The position numbers and the translations under genes are program-made. A stretch of 64,000 nt of DNA, from contig CAKZXA010000037.1 in assembly GCA_937922045.1 (NCBI GenBank), positions 62,001 through 126,000 of the forward strand, written 5' to 3'. The notes under the pieces are model-generated. The model made no database searches, was not told where the DNA came from, and saw nothing but the letters and a program-made list of their open reading frames with translations. Positions 2,601 through 31,842 of the stretch are shown here, piece after piece (position 1 is the stretch's first letter; each line of letters begins with the position of its first letter). This DNA is from an uncultured Acidimicrobiales bacterium (GTDB lineage Bacteria > Actinomycetota > Acidimicrobiia > Acidimicrobiales > SZUA-35).

Positions 2601-3347
2601 CTACCTCGCGTCAAGCGGCTCTCTACCAGCCCGGAAGAGCAGCCAGAGCCCAAACCAGCCTTCGGCTAGTACGGCCGGGATCGCCACGATGGTGGTGAAC
2701 AGTGTCTCGTAGTCGCTGTAGTTGGCGAGGAGGGCGTGGGCCGCCGTGTCGATGACATAGGCGGCACCAGCGGCGAGCAGCACGAACCCGAGCGCCTTGG
2801 GGGCACTAGCGGATTGCAGCACGAGGCCACCGATCAGGATCACGTGGATGCCGAAGGCGGCAAGACCGATCAGCCATGTCGAGTTGAAGGTGTCGAGCGC
2901 TATGAGTGCTTGTGCCTCTCTCTGGGTCGCGTCGATGGCGGTGAGGAAATCGGCGTCGCCGAGAAACTGCAACGCCTGGAAGAAGTAGATGAGCGCAGCG
3001 CCGAGGAAGACGGTGTAAATGAGCCGGAACCAGGCGGTCAGGAGCGAGAGATCTCGATTGGCGGCTCTGAAAACGATGTAGAGCGCCCAGGCGACGATCA
3101 CATCGACCAGGAAGATGATGAGGAAGGCGGCCATGCCGAGACGAAAGAGCCCTTCGGAATCAGCGATGTTGGCCGCGGTAGCTTGGGCGTCATCGGTAAC
3201 GACGAGGCCTTCTCGCACGATGAAGTTTGCGAAGATGCCGAGAGCGAACAGGATCACATAGCCGACGCCAGCTATGCGGGCAGCGGTGCGGGGGTTTGTA
3301 TCGGGTCGGCCTTCGGTCGCCGGGGTTGATCGGGTGTCGGTAATCAT
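2601..3347 (-). CDS. DUF4386 family membrane protein
   Basis: A 248-residue multi-pass membrane protein with six or so hydrophobic segments, for example around residues 26-45, 70-92, 105-125, 150-175 and 205-240. The opening RTAARIAGVGYVILFALGIF and the FRAANRDLSLLTAWFRLIYT segment are typical of the DUF4386 family, whose function is unknown. Its ATG overlaps the TGA of the upstream medium-chain reductase by 4 bp (3344-3347), so the two are almost certainly co-translated. They should share the TetR-operator promoter at 4476-4518. A second DUF4386-like gene (5344-5979) carries the same operators, which suggests that this membrane family is the physiological output of the regulator. Confidence 0.8.
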   Translation of the reverse strand: MITDTRSTPATEGRPDTNPRTAARIAGVGYVILFALGIFANFIVREGLVVTDDAQATAANIADSEGLFRLGMAAFLIIFLVDVIVAWALYIVFRAANRDLSLLTAWFRLIYTVFLGAALIYFFQALQFLGDADFLTAIDATQREAQALIALDTFNSTWLIGLAAFGIHVILIGGLVLQSASAPKALGFVLLAAGAAYVIDTAAHALLANYSDYETLFTTIVAIPAVLAEGWFGLWLLFRAGREPLDAR

Positions 3348-4423
3348 GAGTGCCTGGCGCCTTCGGGTCGAACGATGATGGCTGTCTTGCCGCTGGCGTC
3401 GCCAGCAGCGAGCTGATGCATGGCCTGAGGCGCCTGCTTTAGTCCGAAACGCTGGCCGATTACGGGGACGACCCGGCCGGCGGTGAGGTGATCGGCGAGC
3501 CGATCGATGAATTCGTGGTGTTCGGCGCTGATGAAGGTGGTCAGGCGCTGCCGGAGCAGTGGGGACAATGCGATGGCCTGGATCTGGCGACCAACGCCAC
3601 CGGTGAAGCGGTTGCCGTTCTCGCCGCCGACGATCACGAGCGTGCCGGCTCTTGTCAGGACTCGACGAAGATGAGAGACACGGTTGCGGCCTCCGATATC
3701 GAGGATCAGGTGGTAGCGGAGGTGTCCGTCGGTGACGTTGGTTCGGCTGTAGTCGATCACGTGGTCGGCTCCGAGCGAACGGACCAGGTCGAGCTTGGCG
3801 CTGCTGGCCACACCGGTCACCTCGGCCCCGAGAGCCTTGGCCAACTGCACCGCGTTGGTTCCAACACCGCCCGAGGCGCCGAGGATGAGCACGCGCTCGC
3901 CGGGCTGCAGGTTGCCGATGTCGGTCAGGGCTTGGAGGGCTGTGATCCCAGAGACTGCAGCGACCGCGGCTTGCTCGAAGGATAGGTTTGCCGGTTTGTG
4001 GGCCAGTTTGTCGGCAGCGGCCGCTGCGTACTCGGCAAAGGATCCCTTTGCGATACCGAAGACCTCGTCACCCAGAGCGAAGCGGGTGACCTGGGCCCCG
4101 GTGCCGACGACGATGCCAGCGACATCGAAGCCAAGAACCCGATTCTTGGGTCTGGTGACGCCGTAGCCTGCGAACCGGATCAAGTAGGGGAGTCCGGTCA
4201 TCAGATGCTCGGTGCCTCGGTCCACGCCAGCAGCATGGACTTCAATCAGGACCTCGTCCTCCCCGATCGTTGGGCGATCTATCGTCTCGAAGCGGAGAAC
4301 GTCAGCTGAGCCGTAGCGATCCTGGACGATCGCCGTCATCGATGATGCTGACTCTGGTTCGAGAGCGGCCGAAACCCTTGGTAGCCGATCGAGGTAGTTT
4401 CTCTTGTCTCGTGTTGTCTGCAT
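3344..4423 (-). CDS. NAD(P)-dependent medium-chain dehydrogenase/reductase (quinone oxidoreductase-like)
   Basis: A 359-residue cytoplasmic reductase of the MDR superfamily. It has an N-terminal GroES-like domain (MTAIVQDRYGSADVL from about residue 29; VLGFDVAGIVVGTG) and a Rossmann domain with LILGASGGVGTNAVQLAK (about residues 180-200). The catalytic and structural zinc cysteines of alcohol dehydrogenases are absent, which points to a zinc-independent quinone- or enone-reductase-like enzyme. The ATG at 4423 is preceded by AGGAG about 8 nt upstream. A shorter start at 4339 is possible from homology. It is divergent from the TetR gene and overlaps the downstream DUF4386 gene by 4 bp. Operators in the shared promoter suggest repression by the neighbouring TetR. 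The substrate is unknown. Confidence 0.85.
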   Translation of the reverse strand: MQTTRDKRNYLDRLPRVSAALEPESASSMTAIVQDRYGSADVLRFETIDRPTIGEDEVLIEVHAAGVDRGTEHLMTGLPYLIRFAGYGVTRPKNRVLGFDVAGIVVGTGAQVTRFALGDEVFGIAKGSFAEYAAAAADKLAHKPANLSFEQAAVAAVSGITALQALTDIGNLQPGERVLILGASGGVGTNAVQLAKALGAEVTGVASSAKLDLVRSLGADHVIDYSRTNVTDGHLRYHLILDIGGRNRVSHLRRVLTRAGTLVIVGGENGNRFTGGVGRQIQAIALSPLLRQRLTTFISAEHHEFIDRLADHLTAGRVVPVIGQRFGLKQAPQAMHQLAAGDASGKTAIIVRPEGARHS

Positions 4424-4475
4424 AGCAGTTGCTCCTGTTGTTTTTGGAGCTCTCGGCCCCAGATCCGCCCGGCAC

Positions 4476-4521
4476 GTACTTTGTACGACTTGTTGTCAAC
4501 CGTAGTCGTACAAAGTACTGT
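4476..4521. promoter_or_regulatory. Divergent promoter with paired TetR-type operators
   Basis: GTACTTTGTACGAC at 4476-4489 and its exact inverse GTCGTACAAAGTAC at 4505-4518 flank overlapping -35 boxes. On the + strand TTGTCA (4493-4498), a 17-bp spacer and TACTGT (4516-4521) form a convincing promoter for the TetR gene. On the - strand TTGACA (4499-4494) would serve the reductase/DUF4386 operon. Each operator core GTAC-TTT-GTAC is itself nearly palindromic. Binding by the adjacent TetR protein is inference, but the geometry would block both promoters. Confidence 0.72.
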
Positions 4522-4551
4522 TGGCAACAAGAGATCTAGCGAAAGTGGCCG

Positions 4552-5223
4552 ATGACACCACCAGCAAGCAACAAGACAACGTCGAAGCGAGAGCCCCTTC
4601 GTCGGGGTCGAGTGCTCGAAGGCGCTGTCGCCCTGGCCGACGAGGTTGGGATGGAAGGCTTCACCATTCGCAAGCTGGCGACCGCCATCGACGTCAAGCC
4701 GATGACCATCTACCATCACCTGCCCAACAAGGAAGCCATCATCGACGGCATGGTCGACCTCATCTTCGCCGAGATCGATCTGCCCCCCGTCGGAGGCGAC
4801 TGGAAGGAAGCAATGCGACGCCGGGCACGCTCGGCCCGAACCGTGCTGGCTCGGCACCCGTGGGCCACGCCCCTCATGGAATCACGGACCAACCCCGGCC
4901 CAGCGACCTTGAAACACCATGACGCCGTGCTCGGATGCCTGCGACAAGGCGGCTTCTCGATCGAGATGACCGCCCACGCCTACGCCCTCATCGATGCCTA
5001 CATCTATGGGTTCGCGCTCCAGGAAGCCAGTCTGCCAGCCACCGGCGGTGAGGACATGGCTGAGCTCGCCGATGCGATTGTCGAGCAGTTCCCCGCCGAT
5101 GCGTACCCATACCTGATGGAACTCACCACCGAGCACGTCCTCAAGCCGGGCTATGACTTCGGCAGCGAGTTCGAGTTTGGCCTCTCACTCATCCTCGACG
5201 GGCTCGACAGCTCGCCCCGATAA
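4552..5223 (+). CDS. TetR/AcrR family transcriptional regulator
   Basis: A 223-residue regulator with an N-terminal helix-turn-helix ([19 protein letters not shown] ... [18 protein letters not shown], about residues 27-66) and a C-terminal TetR_C-type ligand/dimerisation domain rich in helices. The start ATG at 4552 follows the operator-bearing promoter at 4493-4521. It is divergent from a reductase plus DUF4386 operon and lies upstream of a second DUF4386-like gene; all three transcription units carry GTACTTTGTAC elements. It probably represses itself and both flanking units until an unidentified ligand binds. The family call is secure; the regulon is inferred from the repeated operators. 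Confidence 0.88.
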
Positions 5224-5268
5224 GTCGTCATCGCCCCGACGCTCCTGGGGTGGGTGATGGTTGGCACA

Positions 5269-5322
5269 TTGACGCCCGTACTTTGTACGGCTAGGGTGGA
5301 TGGAAACAGGCGTACAAAGTAC
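5269..5322 (+). promoter_or_regulatory. Promoter with two GTACTTTGTAC operators
   Basis: TTGACG (5269-5274), a 17-bp spacer and TAGGGT (5292-5297) make a good promoter for the membrane gene at 5344. GTACTTTGTAC (5278-5288) lies inside the spacer and its inverse GTACAAAGTAC (5312-5322) just downstream of the start of transcription. The same 11-mer pair occurs before the TetR gene, so the same repressor probably acts here. Confidence 0.7.
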
Positions 5323-5343
5323 GACAGTCGAGGAGTTCATAGC

Positions 5344-5979
5344 ATGACAACATCGCTCAATCGCACAGAAACGACGCGATCCGGGTTGCGTCTCCCCGGC
5401 GACGAAGGCCCGGTCGGCGTTGAATCTGCCATCAATCGCTGGGAGGGCCGACTCTTTGGCGGGCTCGTGTTGGCCGCGTTTCTGCTCTACGGCATTGGAA
5501 GCGCCTTCGCCGAACGCCCTGTAGGGCTAGCTCTGGTACTCGCCAACTCAATCGCAGTATTCACGGTCGGTGCGATCGGGTACCGCCTGCTGCAAAACCA
5601 CCATCGGCGAGCTGGGGTTACCTACCTTGTCGCTCGTGCGACCGAAGCAGTGCTGCTCGCTGGCGGCATCCTGCTGGTCACCCGCACCGATGTCGCGATC
5701 GCCGCCGACACCGGGTACCTGCTCGGCATGGCCGTGCTCAGTGTAGGAAGCTTGCCTTTCTGGCTTGTTGTTGGGCGTGGCCCATGGCTCTCGAAAACCT
5801 TCGCCTACTGGGGCATCGCTGGCTATGCGGTGCTCGCTGTTGGTGCCCTGATCGAGTTGACGACTGGCCTCGGGGTCACGCTCATCGCTGCAATCCCCGG
5901 CGGGCTTTTTGAAGTCGCTGTCGGCGCCCACCTGCTCCAACGCGGCTTCCGTACGGCGTCGGTTGAAGCGGCTATTTGA
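5344..5979 (+). CDS. DUF4386-like membrane protein under TetR-type control
   Basis: A 211-residue membrane protein with about six hydrophobic segments. ATG 5344 is chosen because GAGGAG (5330-5335) lies 8 nt upstream and the longer in-frame start would place the operators inside the coding region. A motif around GYRLLQNHHRRAGVTYLVAR followed by ATEAVLLAGG resembles the central part of DUF4386 proteins, making it a likely paralogue of 2601-3347. It is single-gene, downstream of the TetR gene, with its own promoter and two operators. The last 8 bp overlap the end of the convergent DNA glycosylase gene. Function unknown; family assignment by motif only. Confidence 0.75.
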   Translation: MTTSLNRTETTRSGLRLPGDEGPVGVESAINRWEGRLFGGLVLAAFLLYGIGSAFAERPVGLALVLANSIAVFTVGAIGYRLLQNHHRRAGVTYLVARATEAVLLAGGILLVTRTDVAIAADTGYLLGMAVLSVGSLPFWLVVGRGPWLSKTFAYWGIAGYAVLAVGALIELTTGLGVTLIAAIPGGLFEVAVGAHLLQRGFRTASVEAAI

Positions 5980-6823
5980 GGAACTTGCTCGTGGTGTTGT
6001 CGGCGAGCAGCTTGCCGCCGGTCTGGCGGGTTGGGCAGTAGAACACCGTGTAGCGCCGGTACTCGACCGAGCGGACGGTGCCATCGCAGCCGAAACATGG
6101 ATCGCCGGCCCGATTGTGAACCTTGGAGGGTCGGTCGGCGCTTTTGCCGATGTCGTCCAGTGTGCGTTCATGAGCAATGGACGCATCTGCGATCGAGAGC
6201 ATCGCTTGATGGAGTTGGGCGATGGCCTCCTCGCTCAGCTTTGAAGCGTTAGCGAACGGTGAGATCCCTGCCTCGTAACAGATCTCGTTGGCCAGCATGC
6301 GGCCGAGACCACTCAGGGTTCGCTGATCTCGCAACACGCCATGGATGCGTTTCGATTGATCACCCAGGACGGCCGTGAACTGGTCGAGGTTGAGATCGAT
6401 GGCCTCAGGTCCTAGCCCTAGCAGCGGGTCTTGCTCTGTCGGGTTCCCGTCGACGGCCCAAACGCCGGCTTTGCGCTCGGTGCCGGCCTCGGTCAGGAGC
6501 CAGGCTTCCTCATCGCCCGCCGCATTGGTGAACACCCAGCGAGCGAGACCAAGTCTGGGCTTGCGTGACCTCTTCGGGTCGGGCCGTAGCCTGCCCCCCT
6601 GCATCAGATGGACGACATGAGTATGACCATTGCTGAACTCGAAGAGCAGATATTTCGCCCGCCGACCCATGCCGAGGAGTTGGTGCCCAACCGCGGCGTC
6701 AACCGCAGGACTGAAGGTCTTCAACGCAGCGAAGTTGAGGAGCTCGAAAGCGGCAAGTGTCGATCCCGCCAGGGCACTGCTCATCCGTTCGGTATGGGCC
6801 TGTATCTCGGGCATCTCCGGCAT
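5972..6823 (-). CDS. Fpg/Nei-family DNA glycosylase with altered zinc finger
   Basis: A 283-residue base-excision repair glycosylase/AP lyase. It begins MPEMPEIQ, which supplies the catalytic N-terminal proline and glutamate of the Fpg/Nei fold. A helix-two-turn-helix region follows (LSGLGRMLANEICYEAGISP, about residues 168-187). The C-terminal finger reads CFGC ... FYCPTRQTGG: three cysteines remain and the fourth ligand is Arg (codon CGC, one base from TGC). The tail KLLADNTTSKFLK is typical of actinobacterial Nei-like proteins. Its ATG starts 3 nt after the TGA of the SCP2 gene (6826-6828), so translation is probably coupled. Repair activity with the incomplete finger is uncertain. Confidence 0.85.
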   Translation of the reverse strand: MPEMPEIQAHTERMSSALAGSTLAAFELLNFAALKTFSPAVDAAVGHQLLGMGRRAKYLLFEFSNGHTHVVHLMQGGRLRPDPKRSRKPRLGLARWVFTNAAGDEEAWLLTEAGTERKAGVWAVDGNPTEQDPLLGLGPEAIDLNLDQFTAVLGDQSKRIHGVLRDQRTLSGLGRMLANEICYEAGISPFANASKLSEEAIAQLHQAMLSIADASIAHERTLDDIGKSADRPSKVHNRAGDPCFGCDGTVRSVEYRRYTVFYCPTRQTGGKLLADNTTSKFLK

Positions 6824-6825
6824 GA

Positions 6826-7263
6826 TCAGTACACCGTCGAGGCTCGCAGTTGGGAGAAGCAGTCATTGATGTTGGCCAGGGCCTTGACGGCTTCGTCGCC
6901 CAGCAAGAGCGCTACATCGCCGCCGAGGCGGACATCGCCGTCGAGGAAGGCGCGTTGTGCGCTGAGATGACCTTGAGCGATTGCCGCCGACACGTCGTAG
7001 GACATCGTCATCGACACACCGGCACCGTCGGCGCCGGGGAGAACCCGAAGATTCGTCGGGTCGAGCACGAGTTGATACCGGCGATCACCATCCGGACCAT
7101 CGAGCACCGTAACCCCAACGGCGGTCGATGCGGCCCCCGTCGGCGCGGTCGCTCCCTCACCCGAGGAAGCGTCACCAGCCACTGCGGCCATGCCGACGCC
7201 GACGTCGACCGTCGCGATCGCCTCGTCCGCCGCCTTCAGCCATTCATCGCTCAGATAGCGCAT
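6826..7263 (-). CDS. SCP2 sterol-binding domain protein
   Basis: About 145 residues from ATG 7263 (MRYLSDEWLKAADEAIA), the usual beginning of actinobacterial SCP2-domain proteins. The longer frame to 7356 would run into the upstream GTPase gene. A TACCAT box (7276-7271) lies 7 nt before this ATG, so the message may be leaderless. The fold binds sterols or fatty acyl chains; in bacteria the role is usually unknown lipid carriage. Near the C-terminus the conserved sequence around GHLSAQRAFLDGDVRLGGDV matches the lipid-pocket end of the family. A Gly/Ala/Thr-rich stretch in the middle (about residues 30-45) is an unusual insertion. It is followed immediately by the glycosylase gene. Confidence 0.78.
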   Translation of the reverse strand: MRYLSDEWLKAADEAIATVDVGVGMAAVAGDASSGEGATAPTGAASTAVGVTVLDGPDGDRRYQLVLDPTNLRVLPGADGAGVSMTMSYDVSAAIAQGHLSAQRAFLDGDVRLGGDVALLLGDEAVKALANINDCFSQLRASTVY

Positions 7264-7288
7264 GGTTGAAATGGTAGCGTCCGGCTCG

Positions 7289-30183: not shown

Positions 30184-31842
30184 CTAGGCCAGGGCGAACG
30201 TCCGGTAGCCGTCGGCTGCCACCTCGTCACAACGGCGCACATAGTCGGGGAAACCCATCAGCGGCATGTACACCCGAGGTTTGCCGGGGATGTTCACCCC
30301 GAGATACCAGGAATTGCAGGTGGTGAACAGGGTCGCTTCGGCCACCCTGTTCACGTGGCCAACCCATGCGGTTGCCTCCTGCGCGGAGGCCTCGATCGTG
30401 GCGAGACCGTTGGCCGTCAGGTAGACAATGCAGTCTGAGATCCACTCCACATGCTGCTCGATGGCCATGATCATGTTGGTGAGAACCGACGGCGACCCAG
30501 GGCCGGTGACGGTGAAAAGGTTAGGGAATCCGGGCACGGTCAGGCCGAGATAGGTCACCGGCCCCGCCGACCAGGCTTCGGTTAGCCTCTGGCCTGACCG
30601 ACCCTCAAAGTCGACCCGCAGAAGTGAGCCGGTCATGGCGTCGTAGCCGGTGGCCAACACCACAATGTCGAAGTCGTAGCTGGTGTCGCCAACTCGCAAC
30701 CCCGTCGGGGTGAACGTTTCGATCGGGGTGGAACGCACATCGACGAGGTGCACGTGATCCTGGTTGTAGGTGGCGAAGTAGTCGGTATCGACGCACATGC
30801 GCTTGCAGGCGAAGAGCTGATCCGGCGTTAGCAGGGCTGCGGTGTCGGCATCGTCGACGAGCTCAGCGATCTTGTCCGCCACGAATGACTGAGCGGTCTG
30901 ATTCGCCTCCTCATCACTACCGAGATCGCCGAATGACCGGGTCATGGCGAAGCCGCCAGCTTGCCACCGCTCTTCGTAGATCTGCTGGCGCTCCTCTTCG
31001 GAGTACTCCAAAGCCGAGCGCTCATTGCGAGGGACGTGGGAACCGAACGCCGCCTGCTGCTCGCGGTTGGCCTGGCGGAAGCTGGGATAGTTGGTCTTGA
31101 CCCAGGCCTCCCACGCCGGGTCGAGTGGGCCGTTGTGAGCAGGCAAGGAATAGTTCGGTGTTCGCTGGAACACGGTGAGCTCGTCGCACTCGGCCGCGAT
31201 CAACGGAATGGCCTGGATACCGGAGGAGCCGGTGCCGATGACGCCGACCCGCTTGCCGCTGAAGTCGACACCCTCATGAGGCCACTCGCCGGTGTGGTAG
31301 ATCTCACCTGCGAAGTCGTCCATGCCCTCGAAATCGGGCTTGTTCGTGGACGACAAACAACCTGTGGCCATCACCACGAAGCGGGCCTCGAGGCTTGCGG
31401 CACCCTCCGGCCCGCCACCATCCTCGGAACCGGTGCCGTCAGCATGAGTGGCGACCTGCCAGGTCGAGGTTGTCTCGTCGAAGCGAGCGGCGGTGACCCT
31501 TGTGCCGAACGTGATGTCGCGTTTCAGGTCGAAGCGCTCTGCTACGTGTTGAGCGTAGGACAGAATCTCGGGTTGAGAAGCGTAGCGCTCGGTCCAGCGC
31601 CACTCCTGCTCCAAATCGGCGTCGAACGAATAGGAGTATTCGAGCGATTCCACATCGCACCGTGCGCCGGGATAGCGATTCCAGTACCAGGTACCCCCGA
31701 CGTCGGTGGCAGCTTCGACGACGTGGGCCGAGAGGCCATGCTGCCGGCAGCGGTGCAGCATGTACATGCCGGCGAACCCAGCACCCACGATCAAAACGTC
31801 AATCGGGTCATCGTGGGAGGTGTTGGGTGACGTGTCGATCAC
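30184..31842 (-). CDS. Flavin-containing (Baeyer-Villiger type) monooxygenase
   Basis: A 552-residue class B flavoprotein monooxygenase. The FAD loop is VLIVGAGFAGMYMLHR (about residues 14-29) and the NADPH loop is VGVIGTGSSGIQAIP. Between them lies FAGEIYHTGEWP, which fits the Baeyer-Villiger fingerprint F-x-G-x-x-x-H-T-x-x-W-P. GTWYWNRYPGARCDVESLEY is also typical of cyclohexanone/steroid monooxygenases. It would insert oxygen next to a ketone using NADPH and O2. GTG 31842 directly follows the TAG of the upstream crotonase (31845-31843), so translation is coupled. The substrate is unknown; a ketone from a degradative pathway is likely. Confidence 0.9.
   Translation of the reverse strand: MIDTSPNTSHDDPIDVLIVGAGFAGMYMLHRCRQHGLSAHVVEAATDVGGTWYWNRYPGARCDVESLEYSYSFDADLEQEWRWTERYASQPEILSYAQHVAERFDLKRDITFGTRVTAARFDETTSTWQVATHADGTGSEDGGGPEGAASLEARFVVMATGCLSSTNKPDFEGMDDFAGEIYHTGEWPHEGVDFSGKRVGVIGTGSSGIQAIPLIAAECDELTVFQRTPNYSLPAHNGPLDPAWEAWVKTNYPSFRQANREQQAAFGSHVPRNERSALEYSEEERQQIYEERWQAGGFAMTRSFGDLGSDEEANQTAQSFVADKIAELVDDADTAALLTPDQLFACKRMCVDTDYFATYNQDHVHLVDVRSTPIETFTPTGLRVGDTSYDFDIVVLATGYDAMTGSLLRVDFEGRSGQRLTEAWSAGPVTYLGLTVPGFPNLFTVTGPGSPSVLTNMIMAIEQHVEWISDCIVYLTANGLATIEASAQEATAWVGHVNRVAEATLFTTCNSWYLGVNIPGKPRVYMPLMGFPDYVRRCDEVAADGYRTFALA

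Follow-up and report, generated by a model that had tools for sequence, protein, structure and literature searches.

A putative TetR regulon with paired operators at reductase and DUF4386 genes in an uncultured Acidimicrobiales bacterium

In a 64,000-nucleotide stretch of an uncultured Acidimicrobiales genome (the window), four elements of the form GTACnnnGTAC lie on both sides of a TetR-family gene, at predicted promoters that also serve a quinone-oxidoreductase-type (QOR) reductase and two members of the DUF4386 membrane family. Taken as a whole, the locus is best explained by an autoregulating, ligand-released TetR repressor of QOR and DUF4386 units, a reading to which we assign a probability of about 0.88. 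At the level of sequence, the predicted operators, their conservation, the promoter geometry and the content of the regulon are established here, and the regulon is accordingly well supported; binding, repression, the ligand and the physiological role are what we infer. An initial annotation had proposed that the reductase and the two DUF4386 members are controlled together, which appears to be right, and the regulon is probably one unit larger than it claimed.

The locus and its predicted promoters

The features of the locus are as follows.

2601..3347, minus strand: DUF4386 membrane protein A (DUF4386-A), 248 aa; PF14329 at 6.2e-51, 173.7 bits versus a cut-off of 27.6
3344..4423, minus strand: QOR-type medium-chain reductase/dehydrogenase, 359 aa; PF13602, PF00107 and PF08240 over cut-off
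4476..4486: predicted operator O1, GTACTTTGTAC, shortly past the predicted QOR start site
4493..4521, plus strand: predicted TetR promoter; -35 TTGTCA (4493-4498), N17, -10 TACTGT (4516-4521) overlapping O2
4499..4527, minus strand: predicted QOR-DUF4386A promoter; -35 TTGCCA (4527-4522), N17 with O2, -10 TACGGT (4504-4499)
4508..4518: predicted operator O2, GTACAAAGTAC, in the spacer of the QOR promoter; it also overlaps the TetR -10
4552..5223, plus strand: TetR-family regulator, 223 aa; TetR_N and TetR_C_1; recognition helix VKPMTIYHH
5269..5297, plus strand: predicted DUF4386-B promoter; -35 TTGACG (5269-5274), N17 with O3, -10 TAGGGT (5292-5297)
5278..5288: predicted operator O3, GTACTTTGTAC, within the -35/-10 spacer of the DUF4386-B promoter
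5312..5322: predicted operator O4, GTACAAAGTAC, shortly past the predicted DUF4386-B start site
5344..5979, plus strand: DUF4386-B, a divergent DUF4386-like membrane protein, 211 aa; PF14329 at 1.2e-05, under cut-off

The regulator belongs to the TetR family by its N-terminal helix-turn-helix (PF00440, 8.8e-09, 35.5 bits, over the cut-off of 24) and a predicted C-terminal ligand-binding/dimer domain (PF02909, 2.4e-24), which is all-helical in the AlphaFold model (mean pLDDT of the protein, 88.6). The reductase has ADH_N and ADH_zinc_N domains; its best NCBIfam model is the PIG3-type quinone reductase, at 178.9 bits under a cut-off of 296.8, and among the 25 NCBIfam models listed no match is strong enough to reach the respective cut-off. 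QOR comes first and DUF4386-A after it, the stop of the one and the start of the other overlapping by 4 bp. The predicted model of DUF4386-A is all-helical and confident (mean pLDDT 92.7), and a Foldseek comparison with the PDB gave no significant match (best E 0.37). In a second structure comparison, Z was 9.8 for TMEM45A, 8.8 for cytochrome b561 and as high as 15.5 for designed bundles, scores that helical bundles can attain simply through their shared arrangement, and no function is drawn from them. The second DUF4386-like gene scores 25.8 bits on PF14329 alone, below the cut-off of 27.6; its aligned relatives, which are genes beside other copies of this TetR (L078, L126, L166, L186), exceed the cut-off at 49.1-116.6 bits, and it is by way of these relatives only that the family identity proposed for it holds, as a divergent member. 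Adjoining the locus are an Fpg-type DNA glycosylase (5972-6823, minus strand) and an SCP2 sterol-transfer-like protein (6826-7272, minus strand).

All four elements lie where the initial annotation had placed them, and O1-O4 are the sole exact copies in the genome (4.88 Mb). Within the window, GTACNNNGTAC occurs five times against 0.12 expected (none of 100 shuffles reached five), the fifth copy, GTACCAGGTAC at 31684, being of a different kind. Across the whole assembly (4,878,135 bases in 128 contigs), GTACWWWGTAC occurs at five sites, all of them at TetR, QOR or DUF4386 units, and the reversed-pattern control at none, so that the near-exact motif is not found as often elsewhere as at promoters. 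Looser forms behave otherwise: with up to two mismatches, the 11-mer occurs six times in the window against 3.77 expected, no clear enrichment, and the 13-mer is rarer genome-wide (24 forward and 32 reverse) than its reversed control (94 and 97). Only the near-exact form is informative, and since loose matches show no excess in the genome, the regulon is not extended by weaker ones. The inverted repeats had been described as perfect over 14 bp; the one at O1/O2 is indeed perfect and spans 15 bp (4476-4490 and 4504-4518), whereas the one at O3/O4 covers 16 bp at 94%. Within each pair, the predicted operators are separated by 32 or 34 bp, roughly three helical turns, and lie on the same face.

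The promoters were placed by hand and by geometry conserved in relatives, and their hexamers are weak or variant. A generic sigma-70 consensus scan of 4300-5450 found no promoter, so the earlier description of each element as sitting on a good promoter does not hold by consensus alone. Promoter geometry supports the proposed three transcription units. At both the QOR and DUF4386-B promoters, 3-bp gaps separate the spacer operator from each hexamer, and the second operator (O1 and O4, respectively) lies beyond the predicted start. An alternative QOR promoter with O1 over the -10 box, placed by eye, was dropped: the conserved -35 TTG sits on the TetR side of O2. The predicted placement of the TetR promoter has moderate support, with TTG at a spacing of 17 or 18 in 13 of 58 loci and T as the sixth -10 base in 28 of 58 (window included in both counts).

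The fifth genomic site is a relaxed copy, GTACTAAGTAC at position 11443 of contig C118, just upstream of a minus-strand DUF4386 gene that scores 170.3 bits on PF14329, over the cut-off of 27.6. A family search of the genome detected three DUF4386 genes, namely 2601-3347, the C118 gene and, as a weak match, 5344-5979; all three therefore sit in units with an element at the promoter. The C118 unit has a single site and a poor -35, with a -10 (TATCGT) at the usual 3-bp distance from the operator, and is likely to be a fourth unit of the regulon, although the weakest case. The C118 gene itself (L091:3227-3946, G000:C118) has no in-frame ATG or GTG near the expected N-terminus, possibly owing to an assembly frameshift or an unusual start.

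Conservation of the predicted operators

At E<=1e-25, there are 62 matches to the TetR protein within the order, spread over 52 of the 397 genomes. The loci compared are the closest ones, 30 of the 62 order matches plus the best 80 out of at least 565 relatives from named genomes (Acidimicrobiales and Chloroflexi MAGs, Arthrobacter, Streptomyces and Nocardioides, among others), giving 110 loci, or 108 after removal of two duplicates; among those best 80 of at least 565, the closest relatives are Acidimicrobiales MAGs. Viral contigs yielded no TetR relative. In loci with the recognition-helix type of the window (KP-like; window excluded, duplicates removed), GTACnnnGTAC is present upstream in 57 of 60, the scanned stretch beginning 260 bp before the TetR match and ending 40 bp within it, and the remaining three carry variant palindromes. 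The conservation beside homologous TetR genes that the initial annotation called for is thus found, as is the concentration at promoters: 101 sites fall in 18.0 kb of upstream DNA, and the other 450 kb of these loci contain 4, which makes the upstream density about 630-fold higher. Neighbouring sites in this group are 22-25 or 32-37 bp apart in 43 of 45 pairs, or about two and three helical turns.

A second helix type (EA) has TTACnnnGTAA instead, in 29 of 46 loci. When helix and operator types are tabulated, with the two duplicate loci and the window included and 17 of the 110 rows left out as unclassed, 57 KP-like rows are G-type and 34 EA rows T-type, with one exception each (Fisher 4e-23). 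On the tree there are three helix changes, four operator changes and two to three independent pairs, so the covariation is mostly one deep split, and it is not counted as independent evidence; what it shows is that the operator belongs to the subfamily, and repeated coevolution is not implied. Among the relatives, 25 of 57 with the KP-like helix and 11 of 29 with the EA type show the QOR-type promoter layout, versus 10 of 22,000 random positions. Some EA-type loci (L033, L036, L172, L190) have operators upstream of TetR with a 4-nt spacer, CTTACnnnnGTAAG, rather than 3, and Arthrobacter sp. H5 (L153) carries a tandem pair of TetR-QOR units.

The exact TTT/AAA pair, searched over 298 genomes, was found in the window's own genome only, and a relaxed WWW form was needed. 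Paired elements, defined as two copies of GTACWWWGTAC with 5-33 bp between them, are present in 16 of the order's 397 genomes, every one of which belongs to the 52 that are TetR-positive (hypergeometric 7.7e-16, with kinship ignored). The reversed control pair occurs in two genomes (G077, G219), both outside the TetR-positive set. All 18 pairs stand at TetR, QOR or DUF4386 promoters. Thirteen have TetR on one side and a QOR or DUF4386 gene on the other, including that of G057, where QOR is only a weak fragment (84 bits). The other five are away from the TetR promoter, upstream of QOR in G321, G134 and G211 (in the last, QOR is cut by the contig end and was recognised by eye from its N-terminus), of a DUF4386 gene in G235, and of DUF4386-B here, and the promoter layout is found at all five.

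Single sites, variable partners and alternative readings

Single sites are less telling. In 25 chosen genomes, a subset of the 52 TetR-positive ones plus others such as G214 and G388, GTACWWWGTAC occurs 51 times versus 27 for the reversed control, about twice as often, and, among genomes that have both patterns, the two counts are equal in G291, G356, G273, G344 and G094. One single site is also present in each of G240 and G079, which have the other TetR type. With counts so near the control, a lone site in a relative means little; the signal resides in the pairs and their promoters. Single sites in L079, L082, L083 and L085-L089 were treated as chance, having no promoter layout and in several cases lying inside ORFs; among the single sites outside TetR loci in relatives, none of eight shows the layout. 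Exact copies of GTACTTTGTAC within one coding sequence, where they encode the peptide KKYFVL (L082:3026, L083:3070, L085:2999), are a trap for motif scans; this coding sequence, in G235, G356 and G291, is presumably carD-like.

The partners of the regulator vary as well. Among 17 chosen relatives with a TetR match, six are without a DUF4386 gene at E<=1e-5. In all, 26 DUF4386 genes were found in the 17 relatives, and 17 of these genes have no site in the 1.5 kb searched, although one of them (in G024) stands behind a DUF4386 gene with a pair. DUF4386 is thus not an obligatory target. Neighbour tallies rest on mechanically picked ORFs, many of which are probably not genes: the ORF picked after QOR is DUF4386 in 5 of the 46 loci aligned (of 50 picks; L159, L180, L183 and L184 were left out), and where QOR is missing (38 loci), the picked ORF matches NmrA/NAD(P)-binding (NAD_binding_10) families in 11 cases and DUF4386 in seven. 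The constant partners are so TetR and usually a reductase, with DUF4386 frequent and not obligatory. In a Streptomyces locus of the EA type that was checked singly (L132), TetR is divergent to an NmrA-kind gene; several EA-type Streptomyces loci like it, with an NmrA/NAD_binding_10 neighbour, have no strict operator in the scan. The DUF4386 gene adjoining the second TetR copy of G024 (L078:2147-2992, G024:C106) has one in-frame TGA.

The alternative that survives best, itself improbable, is that the regulator controls only its own divergent unit and that O3/O4 at DUF4386-B are a functionless remnant of local duplication. A DUF4386 gene that follows TetR in G057 lacks any site of its own, as this would predict, and DUF4386-B is unmatched in seven of eight related genomes searched and weakly matched in the eighth (7.9e-4), a near-absence that leaves its regulation not comparable among near relatives. 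A remnant fits poorly, however, with the fact that O3/O4 share little with O1/O2 beyond the operator cores and yet keep the same 3-bp gaps and N17, and the pairs with this layout away from TetR in G321, G134, G211 and G235 argue against control of the own unit only.

Less probable still is a different DNA-binding protein that reads elements merely near the TetR gene. The paired elements keep to genomes with this TetR (16 of 16), the operator type follows the recognition helix (57 and 34 rows, mostly one split on the tree), and two same-genus genomes without a TetR match at the threshold (G214, G388) have no single site, against 2 and 5 for the reversed control, all of which is more consistent with the TetR-family protein as the reader.

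That the elements are transposon ends, recombination sites, hairpins or chance palindromes is very improbable: GTAC-N3-GTAC is a short palindrome with chance copies in the coding sequence of G235, G356 and G291, and the scan that gave no sigma-70 promoter called four terminator-like sites versus 0.6 expected, including O1 with its flanks (4475-4487), but the regular spacing and the position relative to -35 and -10 fit operators, and an RNA hairpin or terminator in a promoter spacer would not be transcribed. O1 as a terminator hairpin was rejected, and it is read as an operator because such sites occupy promoter spacers in relatives.

A proposed mechanism and its meaning

For the preferred reading, an autoregulating TetR repressor of QOR and DUF4386 units, we propose that TetR dimers bind CGTACTWWGTACG-type operators. 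Each regulated promoter of the locus would have one operator in the -35/-10 spacer and a second just past the start site, and repressor bound at both would exclude RNA polymerase. O2 would serve two face-to-face promoters, those of QOR-DUF4386A and TetR; O3/O4 would repeat the same layout at DUF4386-B, and the single C118 site, at the same distance from its -10, would precede the third DUF4386 gene. The spacing of the sites and their position at the promoter point to repression by steric exclusion, two dimers sitting on one face of the DNA in the manner of tetO1/tetO2. A small molecule, probably lipophilic or electrophilic, may release the repressor; the quinone/enone class is suggested by the reductase alone. 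The reductase would then convert the releasing compound, and the DUF4386 proteins may act at the membrane in the same response.

The tetracycline repressor TetR (Tn10 and relatives) has the same TetR_N and TetR_C_1 domain pair. Its tetracycline-contacting residues are N82, H100 and R104; in an alignment with 5mru the corresponding residues here are R, E and N, which do not preserve the contacts, and the window protein scores 76.6 bits on the tetracycline repressor equivalog model of NCBIfam (PRK13756), far below the cut-off of 265. The operator sequence also differs, and in place of the efflux pump that tetracycline TetR targets, a reductase and DUF4386 proteins would be controlled here. ActR and SimReg2/SimR, which regulate antibiotic exporters, are among the nearest relatives by sequence that have a solved structure, as are 5ojx and 3bqy.

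In the available part of one study of Streptomyces (Ahn et al., 2012; PMC3511530), tetO1 and tetO2 are described as two palindromic operators between divergent genes, both of which are repressed; a pair of predicted palindromic operators is placed in the same way here. According to the same part, a TetR-family gene located less than 200 bp away from a divergent neighbour is most likely its regulator, and oxidoreductases are the most frequent class of predicted targets; the likeness to those cases lies in a TetR divergent to an oxidoreductase. In contrast, none of the operators in that part is GTACnnnGTAC or TTACnnnGTAA, and targets away from the regulator fall outside its rule. CssR of Corynebacterium, as far as the available part of its description goes (PMC8176726), has a different operator and different targets. 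Searches with the exact motif and its variants returned unrelated papers only, and a search for the DUF4386 name or accession found no paper in the library searched.

Overall, the kind of system is ordinary, a TetR repressor with twin operators. Within one TetR subfamily, the association of two operator types with two recognition-helix types would provide a natural specificity pair. A broader idea, which we consider rather doubtful, is that this orphan TetR subfamily senses a quinone- or enone-like compound, that the response to it is widespread in actinobacteria and has DUF4386 proteins as its membrane components, and that the repressor controls the genome's entire DUF4386 complement, including a gene in trans on another contig. 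It is the DUF4386 lead that is the interesting part, as it would tie a membrane family of unknown function to an assayable reductase and a repressor. With a defined repressor, operator and partner enzyme, DUF4386 becomes testable, and the releasing compound may offer a way into its function.
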